Origin: BD2-11 clade cluster bacterium bin43
Lineage (GTDB): Bacteria; Gemmatimonadota; Gemmatimonadetes; Longimicrobiales; Gaopeijiaceae
Direction of reading: 5' to 3'
DNA length: 64,000 nucleotides
Assembly: GCA_002238605.1 (NCBI GenBank)
Contig: MPMR01000014.1
Span: 1 to 64,000 of the forward strand
A program made the translations under genes and the position numbers. Below are positions 25,107 through 64,000 of this stretch, one piece after another (position 1 is the first letter of the stretch; every line of letters starts with the position of its first letter). The notes under the pieces are model-generated. The model was not told the DNA's origin. It saw nothing but the letters and a program-made list of their open reading frames with translations, and ran no database searches.

Positions 25107-25181
25107 GGGCGCTTAGCTCAGTTGGTTCAGAGCGCCTGCCTTACAAGCAGGAGGTCGGCGGTTCGAATCCGTCAGCGCCCA
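25107..25181 (+). tRNA. tRNA-Val(UAC)
   Basis: A full cloverleaf: acceptor GGGCGCT (25107-25113) pairs with AGCGCCC (25174-25180). D arm GCTCAG...AGAGC. Anticodon stem CCTGC/GCAGG with loop CTTACAA, giving anticodon UAC. T arm contains GGTTCGAATCC. The discriminator is A and CCA is not encoded. The 3' end is the apparent integration site of the island that follows. Confidence 0.95.
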
Positions 25182-25239
25182 TTACAGTTACGGGATTCGT
25201 GGGTCCGATGTTTGCAAATTACGTTTGCAAATTGGACCC
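25182..25239. other. Putative left attachment/arm-site region of the island
   Basis: Directly after tRNA-Val, GGGTCC (25201-25206) and GGACCC (25234-25239) enclose two copies of the palindrome TTTGCAAA in a 13-nt period. The AT-rich palindromes stand out. Such spaced repeats next to a tyrosine integrase are typical of arm or core sites for integrase or excisionase. The second half of the sequence also encodes the end of the integrase. No second copy of the tRNA 3' end was noticed in the window. Confidence 0.45.
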
Positions 25240-26400
25240 CGAACCGGCCTCCCGGTACGCCGCCAGAGCCTTCCGGAGTCGCTCCTCGTCGGGCCTCTGG
25301 TAGCACTGGAGAACCGTCGCGGCGGTCTTCCAGCCGCCCAGGTCGCAGAGCACCTTCAGCGGAAGGTCCATGAGGTCGGAAGCGAATTTCCGCCTCAGCG
25401 AATGCCACCCCCGGCCCCACTTGGGTTCGAGTCCCGCGAGCCCTTCGGCCCTCTTCCACCAGCTGCTCGCGAGCCAGCGGGTCATGCAGACCGAAGAATC
25501 CTTTGGCGCTGGCATTACGGGCGCATCCCCGATTCCGGGGTTGCGCCGCCGTGCCTCGACCAGTACCGCCCGCGCCATGATGGTCATGGGCGTCCGGTGC
25601 TCGTATCCGGTCTTCTCATGTTCGGCGCGCCATCGGATCGTCCGGGCATCGATTTCGATGTCGGACCACCGAAGCTGGCAGATGGCCCCGATGCGGTGGC
25701 CGGTCTCGTGGGCGAGCACGAGCGCCACCCTGAACCGCCAGTCCACCTCGTCGGCCACGCGGAGCAACGCCTCGTACTCGGCCTGGGTGAGTATCACCCG
25801 GGTCGGGTTCTTTTCCGACGGTGCCTTTAGTCCCCGGAGCGGGTTCGATTCGAGGAGAAGCCTCCCCTCCTCGTCCCGCGACCTGGCGGCCCAGTTCAGG
25901 ACGGCGAGCAGGAACTTAAGGTCCCGTTGAATCGTCCGGTCGCCAGCGGGCTGACGGTTGCCACCGGTCGTCCCGGCCCGCCGTGCTCGGATGAAGCGGT
26001 CCCAGTCCCGCTGCGAAAGCGTCGCGGCTTTTCGGTGGGTCCCGAAGAACCGGAGGAACATCTTCATCGCCGCCCGATCGTACTTCCATGACCGCTCGGC
26101 CTTGGTGGGTGTCACCTCCTCACCGTAGATGTCAAACAGCGTCTTCAGGGTGAGCGGCTCGGGCTCGGCGTCCGCCGCGTCCGTGGCCACCGGCTCGGCG
26201 ATCCCGGCCGCGATCTCGTCGGCCTGCTGCTTGGCTTGGTCCCAGTCACGGTGCCTGAGCGACCGGGTCAGCCTGCGCCCATCTTCATGCCACTGCACCT
26301 GCATGATTCCGGTTCTGGGATCGGGAAACACCCGGACCCGGTTCCGGCCCCACTCACCGGCGCTGTAGGAGCGCCGGCCCTTCTTTGTGCGTGCCATCAT
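25219..26400 (-). CDS. int: Tyrosine recombinase / integrase
   Basis: A 393-aa phage-type integrase. An N-terminal arm-binding and core-binding part is followed by the catalytic domain: Arg at about 236 (HETGHRIGAICQLRW), a Lys near 263 (EKTG), H333-x-x-R336 (HSLRRKF), Trp357 in the His/Trp position (LGGWKT) and nucleophile Tyr367 (QCYQRP). All key residues are present. It catalyses integration at the adjacent tRNA-Val and excision. It is the last gene of the minus-strand module and starts with a 4-nt overlap with the excisionase-like gene. Confidence 0.93.
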   Translation of the reverse strand: MMARTKKGRRSYSAGEWGRNRVRVFPDPRTGIMQVQWHEDGRRLTRSLRHRDWDQAKQQADEIAAGIAEPVATDAADAEPEPLTLKTLFDIYGEEVTPTKAERSWKYDRAAMKMFLRFFGTHRKAATLSQRDWDRFIRARRAGTTGGNRQPAGDRTIQRDLKFLLAVLNWAARSRDEEGRLLLESNPLRGLKAPSEKNPTRVILTQAEYEALLRVADEVDWRFRVALVLAHETGHRIGAICQLRWSDIEIDARTIRWRAEHEKTGYEHRTPMTIMARAVLVEARRRNPGIGDAPVMPAPKDSSVCMTRWLASSWWKRAEGLAGLEPKWGRGWHSLRRKFASDLMDLPLKVLCDLGGWKTAATVLQCYQRPDEERLRKALAAYREAGSGSNLQT

Positions 26401-45274: not shown

Positions 45275-45678
45275 GTAAGGAAATGACGGCCCTTTCCCGA
45301 AGCCGATGGAGCCATCCACGCAGAGGCGGCCCGCGGCCCGCTGAGCTACCTTGATTCCCGACGCTCGGGCGGGGAGGATCTGTTATTCTTGGTTGACGGA
45401 ATCACTGATGAACGGAGAAAAGAAACCGTGAAGAGCCTGGTCGACCGAATCATGGCGCATGCCGAGGAAGGGCCGATCCCCGTGGCAAGCCCCCCTGTCC
45501 CTAGAAACGTATGGGGAGATATGGCGGTTCCTTCGCAGCTGGGCGGCTCCGCGATCAGCGGAGCGCACTGCTCATCGATCCGATTGTGGGATCGAGCCGA
45601 CGGGAGTACTCGGGTAGCCGTCGAGGCCTGTTCGCCAGCGGCTCGCCCTTCGGCGTTGGTCGAATAGAGGGTAACGAC
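45275..45678. other. 404-bp leader region upstream of the defence operon
   Basis: Between the repressor stop and the DUF499 start. A CCCGA-CGC-TCGGG hairpin (45358-45370) is present. A plus-strand frame from a TTG at 45389 to 45667 (92 codons, MVDGITDERRKETVKSL...) has GGGGAGGA upstream but no family resemblance, so I do not call it as a gene. A TTGACG at about 45394 could be a -35 element. The defence operon promoter is most likely in this stretch. Confidence 0.4.
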
Positions 45679-48600: not shown

Positions 48601-48687
48601 GATCCCGGGAAACTCACCGAACGGCTCTCCCGGTTCGTGAGCGGATCGGCCCACGTCACCGCCAAGCCGCTTCAGGAGAAGGAGTAA
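45679..48687 (+). CDS. DUF499-family AAA ATPase (BrxC/PglY-like) of the defence operon
   Basis: About 1002 aa from a GTG preceded by GAGGG with 7-nt spacing. P-loop GGGKTH at residues 90-95 (LDTSYGGGKTHGL), Walker B LILLDELSVY near 196-205, and sensor-type sequence (ALVYTLAIGKDN). These fit the DUF499/COG1483 ATPases, relatives of BrxC/PglY of BREX. The last 150 residues sit behind a proline run (near 835-850) and form a separate domain. Likely a DNA- or complex-remodelling ATPase in anti-phage action. It heads a seven-gene operon and ends 1 nt before the next start. Confidence 0.88.
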   Translation: MSVPTIFDLCTPRADILQGRVTEAEFAADLARVLASDGGTGYADYTDPARFFANTYPTRGLKELLANVCRRMSGAGGEVAAIFRLDTSYGGGKTHGLIALAHAAKGMQGVAQPEEFVDPALLPSGPVRVAAFDGENADPANGRDMGDGVKAKTPWGELAYALAGKQGFKRVRSSDEKHMAPGASTLRELFGDQPTLILLDELSVYLRSVQSIDHARGQLTAFLTRLFSAVESAPNAALVYTLAIGKDNRATDAYSDENKFIADAMAELEKVSARKATLLNPTREEETVKVLRRRLFETIDEGRVEEVVQPYKKRWDAHQEFLPPDVGRPTIVEGFRASYPFHPEVLETLTTKTATLESFQRVRGMLRLLGKTVAHLWETRPEDACAIHLHHIDPGHEPIRAEIVTRLGQEQYLPAIANDVSSGSPDRPSFAQHIDASSYSGMPPYTEYAARTIFLHSLAFNDPLKGLPPEELRFSMVGPVLDISFIDDARKKFVAESAYLDDKPGATMRFHVDANLNQIIRREERNVDAGDARAQLNDRIQQVFGGTVFDLVHFPGGPYDVDDNVGSGRPRLAILSYDGLSIGPGEVQAPDLIRRIYERTGKEGKKTRELRNNVVFLVADGGFRDKMRDAVRHRLALTALNRADRLGDLAEYQQTKVKELDGKAEQKVAGAIQACYRHLFYPSQQAAASGVALAHTAIDLPSTSDQPGAGQTQVVRVLRELGKLRLPEDAPDQPAYVRDATPLKVKGEITTQALRNEFRRNPKLPMLIGDDVFVKGVRQGVKGKLYIYRSGDLVCGPGEPSVSIKIDQQSMVLTMAYAKKQGVWPRPKPDGPDPPIGPLPPPPPPPPPPPSGTIPVFDAEGILRAALVQIWEQSRANKEVKKIGEITIRIFDAELGLRLLRVAPSVPKARKKAKLTASYQSADGGNLDLEFEGPVSDVKPVTDFLEPQLRAAKEQNATISLTLSYPDGLTLNGPDPGKLTERLSRFVSGSAHVTAKPLQEKE

Positions 48688-48688
48688 G

Positions 48689-49225
48689 ATGGCCAGCCCG
48701 AGACACCTTCGCTACGGCGAAGCCGGACAGTCGGCTCCACGCTACGACTTGCGCATCCGCCCCGCTGGATCCGGCCGGGATTGCTACGAAGTGTGGCAGA
48801 TTCCTTCGGCCGGGACCCCCCAGATCCGGAAACCCGTGCGGATCGCTGGCTTGGGGGGCCGCAATCTCGAACTCGTGCAGCATCGAATCCTCCGTATCTT
48901 GGCCGAGCAACGCATCCGGCTCGTGTCCGCCCCCGGTCGGACGGGGTTCAGCCGACCGGTTCCGGAAACTCTGGCTGTGCGGCTCGGCCTGATATTCCGC
49001 GCGCTCGCCCCCATGCGCGACCGCGACCGCATGTGGGCGGTCGCCGACGGCATCGAGAAGATGGAGCGCGAAGAGGCGTCGTACTGGCTCGGCATGGCGA
49101 TCCACAGGGAGCATCCGAGGAGGGTACTCGCCGGGTTGCGGCTCCTCCTGACCGAACCGGAGAATAAACCCAGCGACGAACTCGCCCTGGTGGCCGCTGG
49201 GGCCGGGCCAGAAGTGGGGCGGTAG
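48689..49225 (+). CDS. 178-aa protein of the DUF499 operon
   Basis: A cytoplasmic-type protein with no signal or membrane segment. N-terminal beta-like part (YDLRIRPAGSGRDCYEVWQI), then Arg-rich helical sequence (LELVQHRILRILAEQRIRLV, AVRLGLIFRALAPMRDRD and EKMEREEASYWLGMA). Similar small proteins accompany DUF499 ATPases in other genomes (possibly the DUF7680 group), so I regard it as a system-specific subunit. No catalytic motif. It starts 1 nt after the ATPase stop, with GGAG upstream. Confidence 0.75.
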   Translation: MASPRHLRYGEAGQSAPRYDLRIRPAGSGRDCYEVWQIPSAGTPQIRKPVRIAGLGGRNLELVQHRILRILAEQRIRLVSAPGRTGFSRPVPETLAVRLGLIFRALAPMRDRDRMWAVADGIEKMEREEASYWLGMAIHREHPRRVLAGLRLLLTEPENKPSDELALVAAGAGPEVGR

Positions 49226-49230
49226 GCGAA

Positions 49231-49932
49231 ATGCGCATCGAACCGGAGATCGTGCACGTCAACATCGTCCTGGTGGGCGACTTCAACCCCGCCATCTTCT
49301 CGCCGAAGTGGTTTTCGGCCAACGGTCTCATTCGCGACGCCGTTGCCCACCGGGCCGAGCTGGGAGTGGTTCACCAGGAGGTCGCCGACTTCACAGCGGA
49401 CTGGCTTCGGCTCCAGGTCACCCGAGACAGGTTTGCCGCCGGGAGCTTGCAGGCTCCATTCGTACGCTTGCGGGATCTCGTTCACCGTGTTTTTCACGAA
49501 TGCCTCGACCACACGCCGATTCGAGGGTTTGGAATCAACTACTCGGCCCACTTCCTGGTGGACAGTCTGGCGACGCGGGACCGCTTGGGGACCGCTCTCG
49601 TGCCGCTGGAGCCATGGGGTCCGTGGCGGGAGCGGCTGAGTCTCGATGGTCGCCACGGAGGCATGACATCGCTGCGAATCTCCCAGTTGAGACCGGAGGA
49701 CAGGGATGAGGGTGGACAGATCAACGTGGTGGTGGAGCCATCCAACCGAGTGGGCACGAGCAGCGGCACGGGAGTCTTTGTGAGCGTCAACGATCACTTT
49801 TCCGAAGACGCGGAGTCTCCCGGTTCGGCGGAAAAGCTCATGGAAATCCTTGCGACGGAATTCGAAGGATCTCTCAAACGGAGCGAAGGCATCGTGGATC
49901 ACATCATGTCTCTCGTACAGTCAAGAGGGTAA
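49231..49932 (+). CDS. 233-aa protein of the DUF499 operon
   Basis: Unknown family. The N-terminal beta strand VNIVLVGDFNPAIFSPKWF is followed by FTADWLRLQVTRDRFAAG and FHECLDHTPIRGFGINYSAH, recalling sporadic proteins of the TIGR04255 type, then a mixed region ending in a helical C-terminus. No transmembrane segment. It begins 5 nt after the previous stop. Likely a structural or effector-control subunit, with no catalytic evidence. Confidence 0.72.
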   Translation: MRIEPEIVHVNIVLVGDFNPAIFSPKWFSANGLIRDAVAHRAELGVVHQEVADFTADWLRLQVTRDRFAAGSLQAPFVRLRDLVHRVFHECLDHTPIRGFGINYSAHFLVDSLATRDRLGTALVPLEPWGPWRERLSLDGRHGGMTSLRISQLRPEDRDEGGQINVVVEPSNRVGTSSGTGVFVSVNDHFSEDAESPGSAEKLMEILATEFEGSLKRSEGIVDHIMSLVQSRG

Positions 49933-49940
49933 TACGCACG

Positions 49941-50552
49941 ATGGCACAGATTGGACTTACAGCGACGAACCCGGAAACGGACTCCAACGCTGGCATGCGA
50001 ACGTCGCCGTCGCCGCCGCAGCCCCCTGCCGTCCTGCCGGGCGTCTCCGGCGGTGGTCGGCTCAGTGGGACCATGGCCCGCAACGAAGGACCGAACGGGG
50101 AGTTGGCGAACGGTGCTTTGTCGGCCTCACGGGACGGGGAAGCGAATGTCGAGGGAGCGTCGAACGGAGCGATTCGGAATGGCCCCCCGGTGGTTCGACC
50201 CGAGATCCCGGAGTGTTATCCAGAGCATTCTCCCTCTTTCTTCCCAAAACAGGAGTGGGCGGGACGAGTGACGGCCATCGACAACGGCTCGTTCGACGCC
50301 CGCCTCCGAGACCTGGCTGACGGCGGACGAGAAGTCGCCACCATCGATCTGGAAGAGGTCAGCTCGGAGGACCGTGCCCGAATACGCGTCGGTTCGCTGT
50401 TCCACTGGGTGATGGGATACGAGACCGTGAACGGAACCCGGAGCAATGTCTCGCGAGTCGTCTTTCTGGATCCGCCGCGCCTGACCAGGCGCGACCTTGA
50501 ACGCGGCCGCCGGTGGGCGGAGTGGCTTCATGAGCGCTGGGGATCTGAGTAG
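49941..50552 (+). CDS. 203-aa protein with disordered N-terminus of the DUF499 operon
   Basis: Residues 1-95 are rich in Pro, Gly, Asn and Ser and appear disordered. The C-terminal half looks like a small beta-barrel (EWAGRVTAIDNGSFDARLRD, LEEVSSEDRARIRVGSLFHW, VMGYETVNGTRSNVSRVVFL) with a final helix (RRDLERGRRWAEWLHERW). No known family recognised. It overlaps the hydrolase gene by 23 nt. Perhaps an adaptor that binds nucleic acid or the neighbouring hydrolase. Confidence 0.7.
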   Translation: MAQIGLTATNPETDSNAGMRTSPSPPQPPAVLPGVSGGGRLSGTMARNEGPNGELANGALSASRDGEANVEGASNGAIRNGPPVVRPEIPECYPEHSPSFFPKQEWAGRVTAIDNGSFDARLRDLADGGREVATIDLEEVSSEDRARIRVGSLFHWVMGYETVNGTRSNVSRVVFLDPPRLTRRDLERGRRWAEWLHERWGSE

Positions 50553-51609
50553 CACCCCCCCGGATCCCGCCGAGATCGAGGTCGCGATGCTCGGACCCGG
50601 TTACGGGGAGAGCATCCTGATTCACACCGGCGATGGCGAATGGGTGGTCGTCGACTCATTCCTCAACCCGGACCGTCGTCCATCCGCGCTCGCCTACTTG
50701 GAACGATTGGGGTACGACCCCGCTACGGCGATCAAGCTGATCGTGGCGACTCACTGGCACGACGACCACATTCGCGGCATAGGGACGCTGGTTGAGTCCG
50801 GCAGGTCCGCAAGGTTCTGCTGTGCAGGCACCCTCCGGCGTCTCGAATTCCTCAGCATGATCGAGGGATTCCGTGCGCAGGGTTCACGGGCAGCCGGTTT
50901 CGGGACGCGGGAGATCTTCTCGGTATTCGCCCACCTTGGACAGGTTGGCGTCTCTCCACTCTGGGCCACCGCAAGCCGCCGAATCCACCGCTCGCCCCGC
51001 TGCGACGTGTGGTCGCTCTCGCCTGACGACGAAGCTTACACCTCGTTCCTCAAGTCCCTTGCGCCCCTATCCGACCCCAAACCGGAGCGCGTGTTCGCCT
51101 TGCCGACTCCGAATCAGCTCTCTGTTGCCCTTCTGGTCCGCTTCGAAGGCGGTGTCTCATGCCTCCTCGGAGCGGATCTTGAGCAGCGCGGCTGGACGGC
51201 AGTACTGAGCGATGACAGGAAGCCCCGGTGCAGGTCCTCGGTCTTCAAGGTTCCGCATCACGGGTCCGCGAACGCTCATCTCGAAGGCGTTTGGGACAAG
51301 CTGTTGGAGCCGGAACCGTTTGCGATTCTCGCGCCGTGGCGGCGGGGCGGCGGATCGTTGCCGCGGAAGGGGGACGTGAACCGGATTCTGGCGCGCACCC
51401 CGAACGCTTACGCCACGACCAAGGCGGCACCCGGTGCGGCGCCCCGGGATCGGTGGGTCAAGAAGAGGCTGAGAGCCGTGAATGCGAGATTGCGACCGGA
51501 GTCCGGCGCAACCGGGATTATCCGGCTGCGGCGGTCGATGACGGGGGAGAGTTCGTGGCGGGTGAAGCTGTTCGGATCCGCGTGTCACCTGGAGGAGTTT
51601 GCGGCGTGA
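50530..51609 (+). CDS. Metallo-beta-lactamase-fold hydrolase of the defence operon
   Basis: A 359-aa protein from ATG 50530. Metal motif HWHDDH at residues 75-80 (the HxHxDH signature), later ligands in LLGADLE and PHHGSANAH (about 242). The ordering matches the ComEC/Rec2-type or nuclease-like branch of the MBL superfamily. Substrate unknown: it could be DNA, RNA or a small phosphodiester. Its stop overlaps the methyltransferase start by 4 nt, so it is probably part of the system. This enzyme is not a usual BREX or DISARM component. Confidence 0.83.
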   Translation: MSAGDLSSTPPDPAEIEVAMLGPGYGESILIHTGDGEWVVVDSFLNPDRRPSALAYLERLGYDPATAIKLIVATHWHDDHIRGIGTLVESGRSARFCCAGTLRRLEFLSMIEGFRAQGSRAAGFGTREIFSVFAHLGQVGVSPLWATASRRIHRSPRCDVWSLSPDDEAYTSFLKSLAPLSDPKPERVFALPTPNQLSVALLVRFEGGVSCLLGADLEQRGWTAVLSDDRKPRCRSSVFKVPHHGSANAHLEGVWDKLLEPEPFAILAPWRRGGGSLPRKGDVNRILARTPNAYATTKAAPGAAPRDRWVKKRLRAVNARLRPESGATGIIRLRRSMTGESSWRVKLFGSACHLEEFAA

Positions 51610-54608
51610 AGAAGCGATCCGGGGGAGACTCGGCGAGCGACCGGCGCCTGATTGAGGAATGGCTGCCGATTGCGGAGTTGAGCGAGGAGAGTACGCGGGA
51701 GCGGCGGGCCATGACGGCGCTGCCACCGACCTACTATCTCCACGTCTGGTGGGCGCGCCGGCCTCTGGTCGCTTCGCGGGCTGCGGTGCTGGGGTCGCTG
51801 CTGCCAGAGGGAGCGGATCGGGAGAAGTTCCTGCATGTGCTCGGGATTCACGGGGATCCGGTGGGGGCGCGGCGGGCCATCGACGGAGCGAAGCAGAGCG
51901 GAAGGCGGATCGAGAATCCCTACGATTACGACAGGGCATTCAAGTACTGTCCCACTCCTGCTGACAGGCGCTGGCTGGAACAAGACGGGGTACGGAACTG
52001 GCAGTCGATCCGCGTCTTGGATCCGACTGCCGGTGGTGGATCGATCCCGTTCGAAACTCAAAGGTCAGGGCTCGTCACACTTGGAAACGACCTCAATCCG
52101 GTCGCGGCGCTTGTTGCGGAGGCCACGGTGACATGGCCCACACAGTTCCCGAGTGAGCTTGCCGACGAGTTCGAGGCATTGGCTTCCGCTTGGCGGCAAC
52201 GAATCCAGAAGCCACTGGAGGACATGTTCCCGCAAACCGGGTTGCCCGACATCGTGGATGTGACCTACGTCCACGCCCACAGCGTCCGTTGCCCCTACTG
52301 CGCTGGCCTCGTTCCGCTGTCTCCGAACTGGCGGCTGGCCTCCGGTGGCACCGGTGTGCGCCTCCGGCCTGACACCGCTCGTGGCCACGGTTCCGAGGAC
52401 CGTGTCTGCACTTTCCAGATCGTAAAGAAGGCCAGGGAACAGTCTCCGGGCACGGTCTCCCGCGGAACCGGCACGTGTCCCTATCCCGACTGCGGCCAGG
52501 TGATCGACGGTGACGAGATCAAGCGACAGGCGCAGGATGGCGAGATGGGCTCGCAGCTCTACGCGGTCATCTACAAGCGCCGCGTGAAGACACGGCTCAA
52601 GTCCGGAAAGCGCGGCAAGGACAGGTGGGTGCGCGGCTACCGGGCACCGCGACCGGCGGACGACAACAGCGCCGAAATCCAGGCACGCCTGGACGAGAAG
52701 CTCCCCGAGTGGGAGGCGTTCGACATCGTGCCGAGCGAGCGAATCCCCGACGGCAACAAGACGACGGAGGCCCAGCGCTACGGTATGACCCATTGGCGCG
52801 ACCTCTTCTCGCCCCGCCAACTGCTCTGTCACGGAACCACCGTCGAGATCTACCGCGAGATGCTGGAGGAAGACCGGCGGGAGGGGAAGCTGACGCCGGT
52901 GCGAAAGGCGGCGTACGGGTATCTGGCGCTGACGCTCGATACGGTGCTCAACTACAACAGCAGGGGCGGACGGTGGGATACGACAACTAGCCGGGTACGA
53001 TCATTCTTCGACCGGCATGACTTTGCGTTCGTTTGGTCGTTCGGGGAGATGGCACCCCTCATTGTCAGCGTCGGCTACGACTGGGCAATTGTCAAGACCG
53101 CCAAGGCCATCCGGGAACTCGTGGAGCTTGTCGCGCCGGAAACAACGACCCACGGGGGTCGCGACCTCTTCAGCGACAATGGCGATCCCCAGAAGGCCGA
53201 CACAACTCCCAACGCCTCTCCACCAGTCACGATCACCTGCAAGTCCGCCGATAACCTCGACCACCTCGAGGACGCCAGCATCGACGCCATCGTCATGGAC
53301 CCCCCGTGGGAAGCCAACGTGATGTATGCGGAGCTGTCGGACTTCTTCTACGTCTGGCTCAAGCGCACGGCGGGGCACGTGTTCCCCGAGCTCTTCAGGA
53401 GCCAGCTCACCGACAAGGACAACGAGGCGGTCGCGAACGTCGCGCGCTTCAAGGGGCAGAAGGGGGCGGGAGCGCGCGCGACCCGCGACTACCAGGAGCG
53501 CATGGCCGCGATCTTTGCCGAGTGCCGTCGCGTCCTCAAGCCCAACGGCATCATGACGCTGATGTTCACCCACAAGGCGGCCGGCGCTTGGGACGCATTG
53601 ACCACGGGGCTGATGAAGGCCGGATTCATGATCACGGCGTCGTGGCCGATCAATACCGAAGCCCCCGGGAGCATGCACATCAAGGACAAGGCGGCGGCGA
53701 ACAGCACTATCTTTCTGGTCTGCCGTCCGCGGGAGCGGCACGAGCCCGACACCGAGCGGGAGACGCGCTGGTGGGAAGATGCGGAACCGCTTGTGGCCAA
53801 GGCCGTACGCAAGCGCGTGAAGGAGTTCCAGAGGGCGGGCATCGGGGGTGTCGATCTCTACCTGGCCTCCTTCGGCCCCGCGCTGGAGGAGTTCTCGCGC
53901 CATTGGCCGCTGGAGCGCCGGAGCCCCCGACCGAAGCCCAAGCAACGCAAGCGGCAGTTCGACATCTTCGAAGAGGAATGGGACCCGTACGCGACCACCC
54001 CCGAAGACGCGCTCGACGTTGCCCGGCGGGAGGTCAAACGCTGGCGGCTTGACCAGCTCGCGCACATGCGTTCCGACGACGATCTCGATCCCGTCACCGC
54101 CTTCTTCGTGCTCGCCTGGGATGCCTTCAAGGCACCGAAGTTCGCCTACGACGAAGGGCTCAAGCTCGCACGCGCGGTCGGCGTCAACCTCGAAACCGAT
54201 GTCGTCCGCAGACTTGGGGCAAAGAGCGGACAGAACCTCGTGCTCTGGGACGCACCCCACCGAGCCGCCAAGGGAGCATTGGGTCCTGCAGACGGCTCGC
54301 GGGGCATGATCGATGTTCTCCACCATGCTGCGTTCCTGGCGCGTGATCGGTCCTTGGACGCCGCCCTCGACATGCTCAGGGACCAGGGCGTCGAAAAGAG
54401 CCCCGACTTTGCCACCGCACTCGAAGCGGTGCTCGAAGTCCTCCCGGTCTCGCGCAACTTCCGCGGTTTCGATCTGGGTTCAAAGGCCGCGGCTCTGGAG
54501 TCCGCCAGCGAAGACTTCGACGCGCTTGAGAGACTCCGCCGCTTGGCTTTCAGCGAGGTCGTCGGCGAGCCGGAGCAGCTCAAGCTGTGGCGTGAGGAGA
54601 CCGCCTGA
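51606..54608 (+). CDS. DUF1156-type DNA methyltransferase with zinc ribbon (PglXI-like)
   Basis: A 1000-aa amino-methyltransferase, GTG start with GTGA overlap. N-terminal part contains PPTYYLHVWWARRPLVASR, then SAM motif I DPTAGGGSIPFE (residues ~139-150). Zinc-ribbon pairs CPYC (~229) and CPYPDCG (~290). Catalytic motif DPPW (565-568, in DAIVMDPPWEANV), a variant of DPPY used for N6-adenine or N4-cytosine. This is the COG1743/DUF1156 class found as PglXI in type 3 BREX. It would methylate the host genome for self-recognition. A disordered Lys/Arg-rich insertion lies near residue 780. Confidence 0.92.
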   Translation: MKKRSGGDSASDRRLIEEWLPIAELSEESTRERRAMTALPPTYYLHVWWARRPLVASRAAVLGSLLPEGADREKFLHVLGIHGDPVGARRAIDGAKQSGRRIENPYDYDRAFKYCPTPADRRWLEQDGVRNWQSIRVLDPTAGGGSIPFETQRSGLVTLGNDLNPVAALVAEATVTWPTQFPSELADEFEALASAWRQRIQKPLEDMFPQTGLPDIVDVTYVHAHSVRCPYCAGLVPLSPNWRLASGGTGVRLRPDTARGHGSEDRVCTFQIVKKAREQSPGTVSRGTGTCPYPDCGQVIDGDEIKRQAQDGEMGSQLYAVIYKRRVKTRLKSGKRGKDRWVRGYRAPRPADDNSAEIQARLDEKLPEWEAFDIVPSERIPDGNKTTEAQRYGMTHWRDLFSPRQLLCHGTTVEIYREMLEEDRREGKLTPVRKAAYGYLALTLDTVLNYNSRGGRWDTTTSRVRSFFDRHDFAFVWSFGEMAPLIVSVGYDWAIVKTAKAIRELVELVAPETTTHGGRDLFSDNGDPQKADTTPNASPPVTITCKSADNLDHLEDASIDAIVMDPPWEANVMYAELSDFFYVWLKRTAGHVFPELFRSQLTDKDNEAVANVARFKGQKGAGARATRDYQERMAAIFAECRRVLKPNGIMTLMFTHKAAGAWDALTTGLMKAGFMITASWPINTEAPGSMHIKDKAAANSTIFLVCRPRERHEPDTERETRWWEDAEPLVAKAVRKRVKEFQRAGIGGVDLYLASFGPALEEFSRHWPLERRSPRPKPKQRKRQFDIFEEEWDPYATTPEDALDVARREVKRWRLDQLAHMRSDDDLDPVTAFFVLAWDAFKAPKFAYDEGLKLARAVGVNLETDVVRRLGAKSGQNLVLWDAPHRAAKGALGPADGSRGMIDVLHHAAFLARDRSLDAALDMLRDQGVEKSPDFATALEAVLEVLPVSRNFRGFDLGSKAAALESASEDFDALERLRRLAFSEVVGEPEQLKLWREETA

Positions 54609-54611
54609 ACG

Positions 54612-57600
54612 GTGCACCGCGCGGTCGACTGGAAGCTCAAGTACACGCCCGATGACGGCGATCTGGTCGAGCTCTTCTACTTGCCCGCGCTTGAGGATGC
54701 GAAGCGGTACGACCGCCTGACCGGCTACTTCAGCGCCAGCGCACTGAGACTCGCGGCTCGCGGAATCGAGGGACTGGTTCGCAACAAGGGCCGGATGCGG
54801 CTCATCGTCGGTTGCACCCTGGATGCACCCGAGATCGCGGCGATCCATGAGGGAGCCGAGCTGCGCGGGAAGGTCTCGGAGCACCTGCGCCGCTGGCCGC
54901 TCAAGCCGGGGGATGGCGAGGAGGCCGACGCGCTCGAGCTGCTCGCGTGGATGGTGGCGAATGACCATCTCGACGTGAAGGTCGCGGTCCCCACGGACGA
55001 GCTTGGTCGGCCCGTGGCCGAATCAGCGCTCTTCCACGAGAAGACCGGGATCATCGAGGATACGAACGGCGACCGAATCGCCTGGACAGGCAGCCTGAAC
55101 GAGACTGCCAGCGGATGGCAGCACAACTGGGAGACGATCAATGTCTTCACCAGTTGGGGCCCGGTTCCGGCGCGCGTGGAGGGCGAGGAAGAGAACTTCG
55201 CGAGCCTTTGGGCCGACCGACGAAAGCGCGCCCGGGTAATCGCGGTGCCGGATGCGGTGCGAGAGAAGTTGCTGGAGTTCTCGCCCAAGGAGGGTCTTCC
55301 GAAGCGGCTGAAGCCGGAACCTGACCCGTTAGTAATCCAGGTAAAGGAGCCCGACGCCAAAGCGAAACTGTTGCGCGAGCGGGTGTTGTCATTCATTCGC
55401 AGGGCCCCGTCGCTGACTCCCAATGGCGAAATGGTTGGCGAGGAGACAGCCCCGATCACTCCCTGGCCCCACCAGGTCCGCGCGTTCGAGCGCATGTACC
55501 ACAACTGGCCGCCGAAGCTCCTGATCGCCGACGAGGTGGGACTGGGGAAGACGATTCAGGCGGGTATGGTGCTGCGGCAGGCCTGGTTGTCGGGTCGCGC
55601 GCGGCGCATCCTGATCATGGTGCCCGCCGCGGTCATGAAGCAGTGGCAGATCGAGCTGTACGAGAAGTTCAACCTCAACTGGCCGATCTATTCGGGCGGG
55701 ACGTTGCGGTGGTATTCACCCAATCCGGAGCGGCCTCCGAGAACGCGCGTCGTGGGTTCGGATCGGTGGCACCTCGAAGATGTGGTGATCGCGTCGAGCC
55801 ATCTGATGCGGCGTCGCGAGCGGCAGAGGACCATCTCGGAGGAGGCGAAGAAGTGGGACTTGGTCGTACTGGACGAGGCGCATCACGCGCGGAGGCGTGG
55901 GGCGGGCGGATCCGGCGACAAGGGACCGAACGAGTTGCTTCGCCTTATGCGCGGAATGCGCGAGCGAGCCCTTACGGACGGGTTGATCCTGCTGACGGCC
56001 ACGCCGATGCAGGTGCATCCCGTCGAGTTCTGGGATCTGCTCGATCTGCTGGGCCTCCCGCCGGAGTGGAACGCGAAAGCGTTCGTCGAGTTCTTCGAAC
56101 TGTCGGAAAACCCCGACCTGACGGCCGAGGCCTTCGAGATGATGGCACGGCTGTTTCGAGCGGAGGAGGTGGCTGGAAGAGTCGAGGCGGAGCCCGAGGA
56201 CCGTCACCTATCATCCCTCTCCCGGCTCAAGGCGAAGAGGGTGCTGTCAGCGCTTCGGGATCAGTCCACGATTCCCCGAAAGCAACTTGGATCGGTCGAA
56301 CGATCGGCGGCATTGCGTCTCATGCGAGCCCGGACGCCGGTGAGACGACTGCTGTCACGACACACGCGCACCCTCCTGCGCCGGTACCACAAAGAGGGCC
56401 TACTGGCGGCGCCGATCGCAGAGCGGAGGGTGAAGGACTGCTTCGTTGAGATGACGGAAGGAGAACGGGAACTCTACGAAGCCGTCGAGAGCTACATTTC
56501 CCGTACCTACGGTCAGGCGACCGGTACCCAGCGAAATGCGGTCGGGTTCATCATGACCGTGTATCGCCGCCGCCTCGCGAGTAGTTGCGAGGCGCTGGCG
56601 AATACGCTTCGCCGGCGACTGGAGTCGGCGGAGGGCTGGGTGTCGGAAACCGCGGGTCAGTGGAACGAAGACTTGTCGGACGACGAGCTCGCCGATGACG
56701 TCATCGGCGCTCCCGAGGATGTCGCCGAGGCTGCGGACACGGCCCTGAGGCTTGAGGAAATGGGCGACATTCGCCGATTGATGAAGATGGCGGAGCGACT
56801 TCCGCCCGACAGCAAGCTCGGGGAGTTGCAACGGATTCTGGGCAACTTGCGGGGGAAGAGCGGGAAAGCCAGCCAGGTCATGGTGTTCACTCAGTACACC
56901 GACACCATCGACTTCCTGCGGGAAGAGCTCCGCAAGGACACTTCCCTGCGGCTGATGTGCTTTACCGGGCGAGGCGGCGAGGTGCCGCACGCTGGCGGAC
57001 TCTGGCGGGCGATCAGCCGCGACGAGGCGAAGCGGAGATTCCGACAGGGTGAAGCCGATGTTCTGCTCTGCACCGAGGCGGCCGCCGAGGGCTTGAACTT
57101 CCAGTTCTGCGGCGCGCTCGTGAACTACGACATGCCCTGGAACCCCATGCGAGTGGAGCAGAGAATCGGTCGCATCGACCGACTGGGTCAGCGACACCCG
57201 ATCATTCGGATATTCAACCTTCACTACCGCGACACGGTGGAGGCGGACATCTACCGGGCGCTGGCCAAGCGCATCGGACTCTTCCACGGCGTCGTTGGCC
57301 AGCTTCAACCCATCCTTGCGAAAGTGTCGGGAACGATCGCCCAGGCAGTGTTGGAGGGTCGCGCCTCGACCGACGAAGGACGGGCGGAGCTGGCGGATGA
57401 GGTGGATCGTGAGGCCGCCGAGGCTGCACCCGGAATCGACATCGACGGGGCTGCGGATACCACCATCGCCTTGACCGACCGCCCAGCATCCTCGGTGACA
57501 ATGGACGATCTCGACCGAGTGATCCGACGGCCCGAGCTCCTACCCGATGGCTTCAGCGTGCAGCCGCTCGGGCCGCGTGAGTACTCGTTGACTGTACAGG

Positions 57601-57779
57601 GGCGCGAATCCGCGATTCGTATCACCACCGATGCGGACTACTTCGAGAGGCACGCCGACAGCGTTGAGCTTTGGTCACCGGGAGGGGAGGGGTTTCCGGT
57701 AGGATCGCCACCTGAGTCGGAGAATCAGCAATGGTCTAATAATATGAGTCTGAGGGGGATTCTGGATGCGACGAGTTAG
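54612..57779 (+). CDS. PLD-nuclease / SNF2-type helicase fusion
   Basis: A 1055-aa protein with a GTG start 3 nt after the methylase stop. Residues 1-190 form a phospholipase-D-like domain with FHEKTG (~141) and GSLNET (~159), the HxK...N pattern seen in PLD-type nucleases joined to helicases. The helicase part has Walker A DEVGLGKT (~305), DEAH in LVVLDEAHHARR (~420), GLILLTATPMQVHP and the second domain block QRIGRIDRLGQRHP. It belongs to the COG0553 class also named BrxHII/DrmD. Likely it translocates on DNA and cuts or loads nucleases. Confidence 0.92.
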   Translation: MHRAVDWKLKYTPDDGDLVELFYLPALEDAKRYDRLTGYFSASALRLAARGIEGLVRNKGRMRLIVGCTLDAPEIAAIHEGAELRGKVSEHLRRWPLKPGDGEEADALELLAWMVANDHLDVKVAVPTDELGRPVAESALFHEKTGIIEDTNGDRIAWTGSLNETASGWQHNWETINVFTSWGPVPARVEGEEENFASLWADRRKRARVIAVPDAVREKLLEFSPKEGLPKRLKPEPDPLVIQVKEPDAKAKLLRERVLSFIRRAPSLTPNGEMVGEETAPITPWPHQVRAFERMYHNWPPKLLIADEVGLGKTIQAGMVLRQAWLSGRARRILIMVPAAVMKQWQIELYEKFNLNWPIYSGGTLRWYSPNPERPPRTRVVGSDRWHLEDVVIASSHLMRRRERQRTISEEAKKWDLVVLDEAHHARRRGAGGSGDKGPNELLRLMRGMRERALTDGLILLTATPMQVHPVEFWDLLDLLGLPPEWNAKAFVEFFELSENPDLTAEAFEMMARLFRAEEVAGRVEAEPEDRHLSSLSRLKAKRVLSALRDQSTIPRKQLGSVERSAALRLMRARTPVRRLLSRHTRTLLRRYHKEGLLAAPIAERRVKDCFVEMTEGERELYEAVESYISRTYGQATGTQRNAVGFIMTVYRRRLASSCEALANTLRRRLESAEGWVSETAGQWNEDLSDDELADDVIGAPEDVAEAADTALRLEEMGDIRRLMKMAERLPPDSKLGELQRILGNLRGKSGKASQVMVFTQYTDTIDFLREELRKDTSLRLMCFTGRGGEVPHAGGLWRAISRDEAKRRFRQGEADVLLCTEAAAEGLNFQFCGALVNYDMPWNPMRVEQRIGRIDRLGQRHPIIRIFNLHYRDTVEADIYRALAKRIGLFHGVVGQLQPILAKVSGTIAQAVLEGRASTDEGRAELADEVDREAAEAAPGIDIDGAADTTIALTDRPASSVTMDDLDRVIRRPELLPDGFSVQPLGPREYSLTVQGRESAIRITTDADYFERHADSVELWSPGGEGFPVGSPPESENQQWSNNMSLRGILDATS

Positions 57780-58903: not shown

Positions 58904-60319
58904 ATGGTGCTTGAGAGGATATTGGCGCTGGCCACCGAACGCGAATCCGAGACTCTGGAGTTCAAGCGTACGACGGGAACGCGTCGTGAGGCAACGGCCA
59001 CTGTGTGCGCCATGCTCAATCACCGGGGCGGACACGTGCTGTTCGGTGTGACGCCGAACGGAAGTGTCGTCGGCCAGCAGGTGAGCGACCGGACGATGGA
59101 GGAGGTGGGTGCCGAGATTCAGAGGATCGACCCGCCGGCTTTTCCGGAGGTCGAGCGGATCCGTGTCTCGGACGGGCTCGATGTAATCGCGGTCAGCGTC
59201 AACAAGGGGCCCGCACGGCCCTACCAGTACCGGGGTACCGCCTATCGCCGGGTCGGCAACACCACGGTGACCATGGCTGCCGAGGAGTACAACCAGATGC
59301 TCTTCGAGCGGCTGCACAGTGAGCAGCGGTGGGAGAATCAACCTGCTCCCGGCTGGACGGTCGCGGACCTGGATGTGGCCGAAATCCGCAACACCGTAGC
59401 CGAGGCGGTACGAACAGGCCGGCTGAACGAGCCCGGTACCCGAGAACCGGAAGACTTGCTTCGAGGGCTTGGACTGCTCCGCGAGGGGGTCCTGTCGCGC
59501 GCGGCGGCGGTGTTGTTCGGTAACTCAGCGCGTCTCGAATTCGAGTTGCCGCAGTGTCTGCTCCGGGTAGCTCGTTTCCGGGGCATCGACCGAAGCGAAT
59601 TCCTGGACAACCGGCAGTTCAATGGCAACGCGTTCGCACTGCTCTCACATGCCGAACGCTTTCTGCGCGACACGCTTCCCATTGCGAGTCGGTTCGAGTC
59701 GGGCCGCATGCGGCGCATTGACGAGCCCCTCTACCCACCCCTTGCTACACGGGAAGCGGTGGCGAACGCCCTGTGCCACAGGGATTATGCGCTGGGCGGC
59801 GGCTCGGTCGGGATCGCAGTCTACGACGACCGACTCGAGGTCACGTCGACCGGTACGCTGCACTTCGGACTGACACCGGCCGCGCTGTTCGGCCCGCACG
59901 AATCGAGGCCGTGGAATCCGCTGCTTGCCCGCACGTTCTACCGGCGCGGTATTATCGAGGAGTGGGGCCGGGGAACGCTCAAGATGGCGGAACTGGCTAC
60001 CGCCGCCGGATTGCCACGACCGGAGATCGAGGAACGCGGCGATTGCGTTACCGTGTGCTTCCGGCATGGACAGGTCGGGTCGGCGCGGCGCAGCGGCCAC
60101 GACCTGATCGAACGACAAGAAGCGATTCTGTCCTTGTTGGATCGAGCGGACGACGGCTTGGCACTACGTGAGATACGTGCCCAGTTGGCTCTGCCGGCCA
60201 GCGAACGTCAGGTGAAGAGGGCCTTGGCGGCATTGCGGAACCGCGGGCGGGCGGTGTCCACGGGTCGCGGTCCAGCGGCGCGGTGGAGACGTGCGCCTGA
60301 GTCCGTCGAGGACGAATGA
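58904..60319 (+). CDS. AlbA_2/Schlafen-domain ATP-binding regulator
   Basis: A 471-aa protein. N-terminal AlbA_2 (divergent Schlafen-like) domain with ESETLEFKRTTG, HRGGHVLFGVTPNG and GTAYRRVGNTTVTM. The middle part contains the GHKL-type pattern REAVANALCHRDYALGGGSV, typical of HATPase_c_4 in COG2865 regulators. A winged-helix C-terminus follows (LALREIRAQLALPASERQVK). These proteins are common in defence islands, but roles are mixed (transcription control or RNA cleavage). The FKR signature is present, but a clear nuclease triad is not. Confidence 0.85.
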   Translation: MVLERILALATERESETLEFKRTTGTRREATATVCAMLNHRGGHVLFGVTPNGSVVGQQVSDRTMEEVGAEIQRIDPPAFPEVERIRVSDGLDVIAVSVNKGPARPYQYRGTAYRRVGNTTVTMAAEEYNQMLFERLHSEQRWENQPAPGWTVADLDVAEIRNTVAEAVRTGRLNEPGTREPEDLLRGLGLLREGVLSRAAAVLFGNSARLEFELPQCLLRVARFRGIDRSEFLDNRQFNGNAFALLSHAERFLRDTLPIASRFESGRMRRIDEPLYPPLATREAVANALCHRDYALGGGSVGIAVYDDRLEVTSTGTLHFGLTPAALFGPHESRPWNPLLARTFYRRGIIEEWGRGTLKMAELATAAGLPRPEIEERGDCVTVCFRHGQVGSARRSGHDLIERQEAILSLLDRADDGLALREIRAQLALPASERQVKRALAALRNRGRAVSTGRGPAARWRRAPESVEDE

Positions 60320-60893: not shown

Positions 60894-61184
60894 GTGACTC
60901 ACGAGATTCTGGTCGTCCAGTGCCAGTTCAGGGTGCAGATCCGAGCCACCGCGAGCGACGCCAATCTAGCGGAGACCGCGATTCAGAATGCCACGGCGCA
61001 GGTGGATAGGCGGCTGGACGCGTCCGATTATGCTTGGACGGTGGGGCGGTTGAACGAGGCCAACTCCGAGGCAGAGGGGGATACGTGGGAGGGCGACCTT
61101 GAGCCCGTGAATGCTGAGTTGAGTGGCCTCGGGCCGAGGAGGATTCCGCCAAGTCAGGACATCGGGATGGGGGTGGCCTCGTGA
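60894..61184 (+). CDS. 96-aa protein coupled to the cytosine methyltransferase
   Basis: GTG start with GAGG about 9 nt upstream; the stop overlaps the next start (GTGA). The sequence is beta-alpha like (VTHEILVVQCQFRVQIRATA, NLAETAIQNATAQVDRRLD) with an acidic C-terminus. No family recognised. A longer frame upstream lacks coding character, so this short form is preferred. It may be a control or Vsr-like partner of the methylase, though no Vsr motif is seen. Confidence 0.5.
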   Translation: MTHEILVVQCQFRVQIRATASDANLAETAIQNATAQVDRRLDASDYAWTVGRLNEANSEAEGDTWEGDLEPVNAELSGLGPRRIPPSQDIGMGVAS

Positions 61185-62494
61185 GCGGAACTTGGGGTAG
61201 CCAGGAAGCGACGGGGCCAGGGACATCTCTGGGAAACTGCATTGGAGAATCACGACGCCGACCGTCACCCCAGGATGTCGTGCCATCTAATCGACAAGAT
61301 TATCCCCCTCTCGCGATCGACCTTTTTGCTGGGGCTGGTGGCCTGAGCCAAGGGTTCCGCGATGCTGGATTCAAATTGGTACAAGCAGTAGAGAAGGACC
61401 CGGCCGCGAGTGCCACCTACGCAACCAACCACCCGGATGTAGATGTGATTTGCGCCGAAATCCAGGGGTTGCGCCCAATAGCGTGCATGGAACGTATCAA
61501 TGTAGCCCAAGGCGAGATAAACATTGTAATTGGTGGCCCACCATGCCAGGGTTTCTCTGAGTCTAACCGACGTACTCGCACGCTGGATAATCCTACAAAT
61601 CACTTGTATCTTGACTTCCTGCGTTTCGTGGAATGCATGACACCTCAATGGGTTGTCTTGGAAAACGTTGCCGGTTTACGAACCATGGCAAAAGGCGTGG
61701 TCCTCCGTCGAATGCTTGCCGGCCTTACACGCGCTGGGTATCATGCCGACTGGCGGCTACTAAACTCCGCCAATCATGGTGTGCCACAGGTCAGACGCCG
61801 CCTATTCGTGATCGCCAATCGTGTCGGCGTGCCCATTCCGAGTGAGACCGATATCGTCACTGCCACACTGCGAAAACCAATAACCGTGCGTGAGGCAATC
61901 GGGGACCTCCCAGTCCTCTCCAATGGAGCATCAATTGACCTCTTGGAATACCCCAATGGAGCTACGTCGGCCTATCAGAGACGAATGCGCCGAGGGGCCG
62001 GGAGGTATGTCTCAGGCAATCTAGTGACCCGAAACGGCGCCCACATCCGACAGCGGTATCACTACATCCCAGAAGGAGGAAACTGGAAGGACATCCCTCC
62101 TTCGCTATTGGGCAACTACACCGACCGAACTAGGTGTCACACGGGAATCTACCATCGTCTTTACTGGGATCGCCCGGCCAAGGTGATCGGAAACTTCCGC
62201 AAGAACATGCTAGTCCACCCAAGCCAAGATCGAGGATTGTCCATCCGGGAGGCAGCACGACTCCAAGGGTTCCCCGATACTTACCGATTCGTCGGAACAA
62301 TTGGTCCTCGGCAGCAGCAGGTTGCCGATGCAGTCCCACCGGTTCTCGCTGAAGCCGTCGCACGGGCGATTTTTCCAAGTGTCAGCCTGGGTACCCGGGG
62401 CGCCGCACCTGATACGACGGCAGGACGAATCCCGACCCACATCGCCGCGCTTTCGGCCGAAGGCGCACCGATTCTGATCAACCATGGACCGTAG
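61181..62494 (+). CDS. C5-cytosine DNA methyltransferase (Dcm-type)
   Basis: A 437-aa enzyme. Motif I DLFAGAGGLSQGF (residues ~47-59), motif IV with catalytic Cys GGPPCQGFS (~118-126), ENVAG (motif VI), QVRRRLFVIA (motif VIII), and the late motifs (LQGFPD and QQQVADAVPP). The first ~45 residues are a non-conserved extension. The region is less G/C-rich at third positions than the backbone, a sign of recent acquisition. No adjacent restriction endonuclease is recognised, but the pair on the opposite strand downstream is of unknown function. Confidence 0.92.
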   Translation: MSGTWGSQEATGPGTSLGNCIGESRRRPSPQDVVPSNRQDYPPLAIDLFAGAGGLSQGFRDAGFKLVQAVEKDPAASATYATNHPDVDVICAEIQGLRPIACMERINVAQGEINIVIGGPPCQGFSESNRRTRTLDNPTNHLYLDFLRFVECMTPQWVVLENVAGLRTMAKGVVLRRMLAGLTRAGYHADWRLLNSANHGVPQVRRRLFVIANRVGVPIPSETDIVTATLRKPITVREAIGDLPVLSNGASIDLLEYPNGATSAYQRRMRRGAGRYVSGNLVTRNGAHIRQRYHYIPEGGNWKDIPPSLLGNYTDRTRCHTGIYHRLYWDRPAKVIGNFRKNMLVHPSQDRGLSIREAARLQGFPDTYRFVGTIGPRQQQVADAVPPVLAEAVARAIFPSVSLGTRGAAPDTTAGRIPTHIAALSAEGAPILINHGP

Positions 62495-62585: not shown

Positions 62586-63542
62586 CTACAGCGCTTCGGT
62601 CTTTGCCTGGCCGATTAGCCCGGTAATGTCAAAATGAAATGCCGTGCCGACACCTTGGCAATAGGACGGATTATACTTCTCCGGCACAGCATACACGATC
62701 CTTACCCGTCTCTCATGCAGCGCAAACAATGTAGCGCCAACAAACGAAAGCTTGGTGTTCATCCCTGCAAGTGAGACATTCTCTTTACCGAAGTCAAGCC
62801 CTACCTCACGCAAACGTTCGTACACATCGTCAACTGAATCCGATCTGAACCCGAACCTTTCCACTGTCGGTACCGGCACTCTCGACCGAAGTGCTCGCAC
62901 CACGCGTCGACTGTACTCGTCCGCGCCCGCTGTAGTGGACGAACCAATGTCGCCGCTTCCTATTGACAGCTTCCGGGGCTCCACATACTCTACAATCTCC
63001 ATCAAGCGCTCTCTCTCGTGGCCCGCTAGCGCGATCAGATGGCCCGTCTTTTCTCCCGAAAAGTCTCCTGGAAATCCGATTATGGACCGGATGTCACGAA
63101 CTCCTTTGCTCAACCATCTTGCAGATTCATCCAACTCCGTGTTTTGCGTCGCATAGCCACCCTCTGGCGCCGCGATATAATCTACCGTAACGTTTACGAA
63201 CCTCTTCCGCATCAAGGAAATCGCAAACAATAGCATCCCTAGTAGTTCCCGAGGGAAACAGGTGATGTCAACAGCAATGTCGCCACGAGGAGCGCCCCTA
63301 ATCGTCTTCCACGCCCAACTCCAGAGCGCTCTACTATCGAATCGATCCAAGGGCTCTATTGCCTCTATGCGCAACTCCCGAAACGCATCCACGTTCTCCT
63401 GGTGCTGAACATTGTCCTCAATGACGTTGGCCAAATGTACGTCGCGCGGCTCGCCAACATTGGTCAAAAACTTCCTTGTGGTCACTAGAGACCTCTCCTC
63501 AAATGACGCAGCGGCCACGAGTGTTACCGGGTTACGGTTCAT
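62586..63542 (-). CDS. Rossmann-like protein of a two-gene defence-type unit
   Basis: A 318-aa protein from ATG 63542, one nucleotide after the stop of the upstream gene. Two repeated alpha/beta halves seem present: VTLVAAASFEERSLVT...DIAVDITCFPRELLG, and later LIALAGHERERLMEIVEYVE with KLSIGSGD. The DITCFPRE turn resembles the nucleotide-binding turn of CARF/SAVED-like sensor folds, but the likeness is weak. C-terminal block TKLSFVGATLFALHERRVRI. Base composition is clearly lower in G/C than the backbone. Function not assigned. Confidence 0.65.
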   Translation of the reverse strand: MNRNPVTLVAAASFEERSLVTTRKFLTNVGEPRDVHLANVIEDNVQHQENVDAFRELRIEAIEPLDRFDSRALWSWAWKTIRGAPRGDIAVDITCFPRELLGMLLFAISLMRKRFVNVTVDYIAAPEGGYATQNTELDESARWLSKGVRDIRSIIGFPGDFSGEKTGHLIALAGHERERLMEIVEYVEPRKLSIGSGDIGSSTTAGADEYSRRVVRALRSRVPVPTVERFGFRSDSVDDVYERLREVGLDFGKENVSLAGMNTKLSFVGATLFALHERRVRIVYAVPEKYNPSYCQGVGTAFHFDITGLIGQAKTEAL

Positions 63543-63543
63543 C

Positions 63544-64000
63544 TCACCAAATCTCCATATCGCCGGGATCGAGCGGCTCGTACTCAACCTCGTTCGCGCC
63601 GTGAGTCTTGAACATCTCAATCTGAGCGGACGATACATCCTCCGATCTCCGCAATGGTCCCTCATTAGCAAGCTTCTCAATGACATCGGGCGTGCATGAC
63701 AAATAGCCGGAGTAGGACGACACGTCCAGGCTAAAGCACGGCGCCAATCGCCGCGTGAGCACATACAGCGCACGGCGCCCCGTCCCCTCCTTCTTTGCGC
63801 TGTATCCCTTCATGAAATAGCCTTCGGAAATACCCAACTTCAACAACTTCAACAGCTCTTCGCTCGGAGGGGACTGAAGCGCAAATGAAAAGACACGCCT
63901 TTCGGAATCTTGGGAAAGCAGCTTTTGCTTGAACAACACCCCGAGTCCCTCAATGAGCTTCGCCACCTTGCGCCAATCGCCGGCGTCCCGAACACGCTTC
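63544..64000 (-). CDS. C-terminal part of a protein running off the window (winged-helix-like end)
   Basis: The frame stays open to the last base of the window (reading KRVRDAGDWRKVAKLIEGLG), so the Met/Val at 63966 is probably internal and the true start lies outside. The visible ~151 residues include ISEGYFMKGYSAKKEGTGRR, ALYVLTRRLAPCFSLDVSSY and GYLSCTPDVIEKL, which read like the terminal winged helix of an ORC/CDC6-like or other AAA ATPase from defence islands. It is tightly coupled to the downstream gene (stop 63544, next ATG 63542). Confidence 0.6.
   Translation of the reverse strand, partial: KRVRDAGDWRKVAKLIEGLGVLFKQKLLSQDSERRVFSFALQSPPSEELLKLLKLGISEGYFMKGYSAKKEGTGRRALYVLTRRLAPCFSLDVSSYSGYLSCTPDVIEKLANEGPLRRSEDVSSAQIEMFKTHGANEVEYEPLDPGDMEIW

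Follow-up and report, generated by a model that had tools for sequence, protein, structure and literature searches.

What is the role of two closely spaced genes at the right end of the 64,000-nucleotide stretch of DNA analyzed here (hereafter the window), one of which runs off its edge? In a first-pass annotation the pair was taken for a two-gene unit of low G/C content belonging to no nameable family, and was likened to small anti-phage modules made up of an ATPase and a sensor. The contig comprises 98,571 bases and continues past the window, and extension to the right, as that annotation had proposed, yielded the complete partner, an ATPase of 599 amino acids whose gene reaches contig position 65343. 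The genes of the locus are the following.

61181..62494, plus strand: C5 cytosine DNA methylase gene (Pfam PF00145, 204.5 bits).
62586..63542, minus strand: tandem-CARF sensor gene (PADLOC CARF6), 318 amino acids, last in the operon.
63544-65343 (contig), minus strand: ORC-CDC6-like P-loop ATPase gene, 599 amino acids; the C-terminal part, 63544..64000, lies in the window.
65340-66395 (contig), minus strand: HD-CE phosphohydrolase gene, 351 amino acids, outside the window.

The two open reading frames first noticed are indeed separated by exactly 1 nt (ATPase stop at 63544, CARF start at 63542), and both lie on the minus strand within a region (about 61200-66600) with a GC content of 52-57%, versus 65-72% to the right. 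The CARF gene runs from ATG 63542 to a stop at 62586; a mechanically called frame from GTG 63773 was over-long and was set aside in favor of this start. It had been presented as the first gene, but on the minus strand it is the last of an operon transcribed in the order HD-CE, ATPase, CARF, in which the upstream HD-CE gene overlaps the ATPase start by 4 nt. The methylase gene is convergent with this operon, and the conserved unit consists of the three co-directional genes plus the methylase, and not of two genes.

Single-sequence phmmer searches against the PDB gave no useful match for the CARF protein, the ATPase or the HD protein, so fold comparison was needed. An AlphaFold model of the 318-amino acid protein, built from an alignment of 59 sequences, reached a pLDDT of 93.2 and showed two successive Rossmann-like halves. 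Foldseek matched the model with a probability of 1.00 to Can1, Csm6, Cam1 and Can2, and VIA-align ranked Can1 first (Z 15.4, 238 residues, rmsd 3.6), its top 44 rows all being CARF or SAVED proteins. The two alpha/beta halves and the sensor-like fold that had been read from the letters, including the DITCFPRE turn (residues 92-99), thus correspond to a CARF/SAVED fold. Residues R17, D92, R179, K264 and S266 are invariant in the 59 sequences, D92 being part of that turn. The best-conserved residues sit after strands 1 and 4 of each half, as judged from the strands of the model. In CARF domains the ligand-binding site lies after the first and fourth strands, and the invariant residues are therefore placed at the predicted ligand site. 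The protein also matches PADLOC CARF6 (PDLC01917) with 161 bits over nearly its whole length. That family is described as CARF_CARF_CARF, whereas the model of the window protein shows two Rossmann-like halves; its name reportedly stems from the CARF classification of Makarova 2020. Like the window protein, Can1 (6sce), a type III CRISPR nuclease driven by cyclic oligoadenylate, contains two CARF domains in one chain; unlike Can1, which carries nuclease parts, the window protein shows no fused effector domain in its AlphaFold model.

The ATPase matches Pfam PF24389 (ORC-CDC6-like) with 258.3 bits for a cut-off of 27. Its P-loop is intact, residues G45, R47, G48, G50, K51 and S52, together with D227 and D228, being at least 95% conserved, and a conserved stretch near its end, GTGR..Y.LTRRLAP, is compatible with a candidate winged helix. 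The HD protein matches PF24391 (HD-CE) with 74.6 bits for the same cut-off of 27, and its metal ligands H75, H79, H118, D119, H160 and D196 are at least 95% conserved. A structural model built from a relative (locus L047, pLDDT 88.5) resembled GppA/Ppx (Z 12.6) and cyclic-nucleotide phosphodiesterases (Z 11.7), scores that for helical folds are suggestive but not proof, so that the HD assignment relies on the PF24391 match and on the conserved metal ligands. SAMHD1-type dNTPases were absent among the listed fold matches of this model, though the enzyme may be a dNTPase all the same. Families thus exist in Pfam and PADLOC for the parts of a unit that had seemed to belong to none. PADLOC gave no match for the window ATPase or HD protein, NCBIfam and PHROGs gave no family above cut-off for the three operon proteins, and profile searches matched no nuclease family in any of the three. 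In phage records, a single partial match to the ATPase was obtained. In RefSeq, the HD, ATPase and CARF proteins of plasmid copies are annotated as hypothetical.

The extent of the unit was examined in 60 loci matched by the ATPase alignment in a scan of named genomes, in whose neighborhoods partner genes were sought by iterated profile searches. The ATPase gene was accompanied by a CARF gene in all 60 loci, by an HD gene in 57 and by a C5 methylase gene in 51. Most often the four genes lie on the same strand in the order methylase, HD, ATPase, CARF, and in most relatives the methylase gene heads the operon; in three loci (L082, L096, L101) it is convergent after the CARF gene, as in the window, and in two (L065, L081) it is present but not adjacent to the cassette. 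Two loci (L075:5919-9717 and L076:6986-9754) contain ATPase-CARF pairs with no HD gene beside the ATPase. The loci come from at least ten phyla, assigned by record title, which comprise Pseudomonadota, Bacteroidota, Bacillota, Acidobacteriota, Gemmatimonadota, Armatimonadota, Planctomycetota, Verrucomicrobiota, Desulfobacterota, Latescibacterota and others. Copies were found on plasmids, but most have a chromosomal location with other defence genes nearby. The distance matrices calculated for the four genes are correlated (Mantel r 0.60-0.86, versus at most 0.24 in permutations), a correlation that reflects shared descent of linked genes rather than contact.

The PCQ, ENV and QxRxR motifs of the methylase are conserved among relatives. 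Segment 281-345, which from its place between conserved motifs is probably the target-recognition region, shows a mean pairwise identity of 0.63, compared with 0.49 in the catalytic part. The higher conservation of this segment argues that the target site is probably shared, that is, that the methylases of the relatives probably have one DNA site in common.

Departures from the four-gene arrangement are informative as to its core. In one locus of Gemmatimonadota (L043), the ATPase and CARF genes are accompanied by a D12 adenine methylase and a calcineurin-like enzyme; in another (L044), they are accompanied by an N4/N6 methylase and a PRTase-CE, the latter placed between methylase and ATPase. 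Plasmids repeat both patterns. The slot of the HD enzyme is thus filled by three unrelated folds, HD, calcineurin-like and PRTase, each together with another class of methylase. Judged from these gene contents, the ATPase and CARF genes make up a constant core, around which the methylase and the enzyme can be exchanged. PRTase-CE and wHTH-Calcineurin_assc (PF24408) occur in such variants, the window ATPase and HD protein being clear members of PF24389 and PF24391. The PRTase of L044 matches the PADLOC PRTase_III-A models of retron III-A. In retrons, this PRTase family is used as an effector; in the window, an HD enzyme takes its place.

The cassette resides on a mobile element, delimited by the following features.

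25138..25182, plus strand: left att repeat, 45 bp, inside tRNA-Val(TAC) 25107-25181.
25219..26400, minus strand: tyrosine integrase gene next to the tRNA (Pfam PF00589, 61.9 bits).
67649-67693 (contig; L002:7649-7693): right att repeat, exact 45-bp copy.

The integrase gene is followed by genes for ArdC, a VirB11-type ATPase, a TraG/TrwB-type protein and TrbL. The tRNA-Val is intact in the sister genomes G045, G224 and G085 and is joined there directly to the right flank; sister genomes also carry other inserts near this tRNA-Val. The exact end repeats, the integrase, the conjugation-type genes and the junctions in sister genomes indicate that the cassette is carried by a 42.5-kb element inserted in tRNA-Val, which looks integrative and conjugative. 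The element also contains a second defence-like system (window 45511-57779), formed by the following genes.

45511-48687: DUF499/HmaC-type ATPase.
51228-54608: DUF1156/HmaB-type methylase.
54612-57779: PLD-helicase.

This set resembles Hma-like or BREX-related systems (PMC12839542). Between the two systems lies the gene of a Schlafen AlbA_2 protein with a RecG-type C-terminal ATPase domain (58904-60319), of which 86-90% identical copies are present elsewhere in two sister genomes.

Two kinds of genes recur beside the cassette. A ThyA, ThyX or dUTPase gene adjoins it in nine loci (two Thy1-domain matches, untraceable to loci with ThyX queries, were left out):

L044:13160-14191
L069:9807-10907
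L071:4093-4887
L075:5128-5922
L079:9793-10764
L107:8808-9746
L110:10255-11208
L111:3680-4591
L117:5231-5896

In L075, ThyA and the methylase directly precede the ATPase, and in L071, L075 and L111 the thymidylate-related gene overlaps or abuts the methylase gene, an arrangement that suggests a functional link between the system and thymidylate metabolism. An insertion hotspot is an alternative reason for these neighbors, and thyA of L069 and L079 may be the host's own gene. Genes of the Mza type (GHKL ATPase, Z1, DUF4420, AIPR) were found directly beside the cassette in L085, L089, L091, L095, L098, L101, L102 and L043:6057-8548, in some neighborhoods accompanied by Vsr. None of these four families was found by Pfam or PADLOC among the four proteins of the window cassette; the genes differ, so Mza is a separate system and a frequent direct neighbor.

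The cassette is probably directed against phages. Our preferred reading of how it works, held tentatively and falling a little short of probable, is that it forms a mobile defence linked to DNA modification and gated by a nucleotide, in which the HD enzyme acts as effector. The methylase would label the host's DNA at a single fixed site; acting as an ATP-driven, DNA-linked switch, the ATPase would bind invading or unmodified DNA; the tandem-CARF protein would gate the ATPase on sensing a nucleotide that arises during infection; and the HD enzyme would hydrolyze cellular nucleotides, so that phage replication or cell growth stops. In favor of this reading count the identity of the parts, their conserved linkage, the mobile defence setting, the lack of Cas10 and SMODS matches in the genome and the thymidylate-related neighbors. 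The putative effector role is favored because the slot is exchanged with a retron-effector family and because of the HD fold itself; the two loci with no HD gene beside the ATPase, L075 and L076, speak against the reading. The same phosphodiesterase- and GppA/Ppx-like fold of the model would also fit a signal-degrading enzyme. It might then be the HD enzyme, or the calcineurin-like enzyme or PRTase in its place, that makes or destroys the nucleotide bound by CARF, the DNA-bound ATPase itself blocking the phage. We consider this rather unlikely. The HD fold does lie near cyclic-nucleotide phosphodiesterases, CARF proteins need a controlled ligand, and no other enzyme of the cassette could handle one; however, the PRTase that occupies the same slot belongs to a family of retron effectors, and enzymes as different as an HD hydrolase, a metallophosphoesterase and a PRTase would probably not act on one ligand in the same way. 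That the four genes form an addiction module of the mobile element, in which the other three genes would kill the cell once the methylase or the whole element is lost and phage defence is secondary, would agree with their carriage by a conjugative element and plasmids and with the link to a methylase, as in restriction-modification systems that act as addiction modules. The chromosomal location of most copies near other defence genes, and a nucleotide sensor of no obvious use in pure addiction, make this explanation distinctly less plausible still.

CARF sensors are known to detect cyclic oligonucleotides that Cas10-type enzymes produce, and on its CARF/SAVED fold the window protein might be thought to respond to cyclic oligoadenylate produced in the same cell by a separate type III CRISPR or CBASS system. 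No match to Cas10 (the palm domain, PF22335) or to SMODS (CD-NTase, PF18144) was found in the genome, which is 97.3% complete, and a strong Cas10 match was present in only 4 of the 46 genomes carrying the system; other genomes gave weak matches to the Cas10 palm, which are probably GGDEF domains and were not counted. The ligand is thus probably not a type III CRISPR product, dependence on type III CRISPR or CBASS was rejected as the general rule, and this source of the signal appears very improbable. A known housekeeping or transposon pair in the full sequence would have refuted the first-pass annotation, and this outcome did not arise. Such an origin, for which the mobile setting alone would speak, is scarcely credible, given that PADLOC CARF6 is present in 5 of the 395 genomes of the phylum, that the GC content is low and that no transposase was matched. 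What stands of the small anti-phage module first proposed is the combination of an ATPase with a sensor, borne out by the P-loop protein, the CARF/SAVED fold and the mobile defence island; its two-gene extent does not. A bolder and more doubtful extension of our preferred reading is that the cassette represents CARF-gated immunity without Cas10 or CD-NTase, in which a new infection nucleotide would be sensed, perhaps a pyrimidine deoxynucleotide, as the ThyA, ThyX and dUTPase neighbors suggest, and the ATPase would couple this sensing to fixed-site methylation and to exchangeable nucleotide-attacking effectors.

The cassette shares features with several known systems. With type II restriction-modification it has in common a DNA methylase with conserved catalytic motifs, but a cognate endonuclease was not found in its other three proteins. 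BREX and DISARM likewise combine a methylase and an AAA+ ATPase in an anti-phage locus, but their core genes (PglZ, helicase and others) were not found in the window cassette by Pfam or PADLOC. BREX, too, uses ORC-Cdc6-type ATPases (PMC12839542). No experimental account of the cassette was found; literature on HD-CE, PRTase-CE, CARF6 or ORC-CDC6-like proteins in defence yielded nothing on it, the two papers likeliest to treat its parts lying outside the search, and eLife 52696 holds no discussion of its domains. The parts are already named in Pfam and PADLOC. ORC-CDC6-like, PRTase-CE and HD-CE have consecutive accessions in Pfam, which suggests an earlier joint in-silico description. These three families (PF24389-PF24391) and PF24408 are said to come from Burroughs and Aravind 2020.

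The significance of the cassette lies in its being widespread and tightly linked, with an enzyme slot that takes unrelated folds. Its free-standing tandem CARF protein, with no cyclase, makes both ligand and switch directly testable. Across phyla, the probable target region of its methylase is more conserved than the catalytic part, a pattern that suggests a single common DNA site, which the rest of the machine may read.
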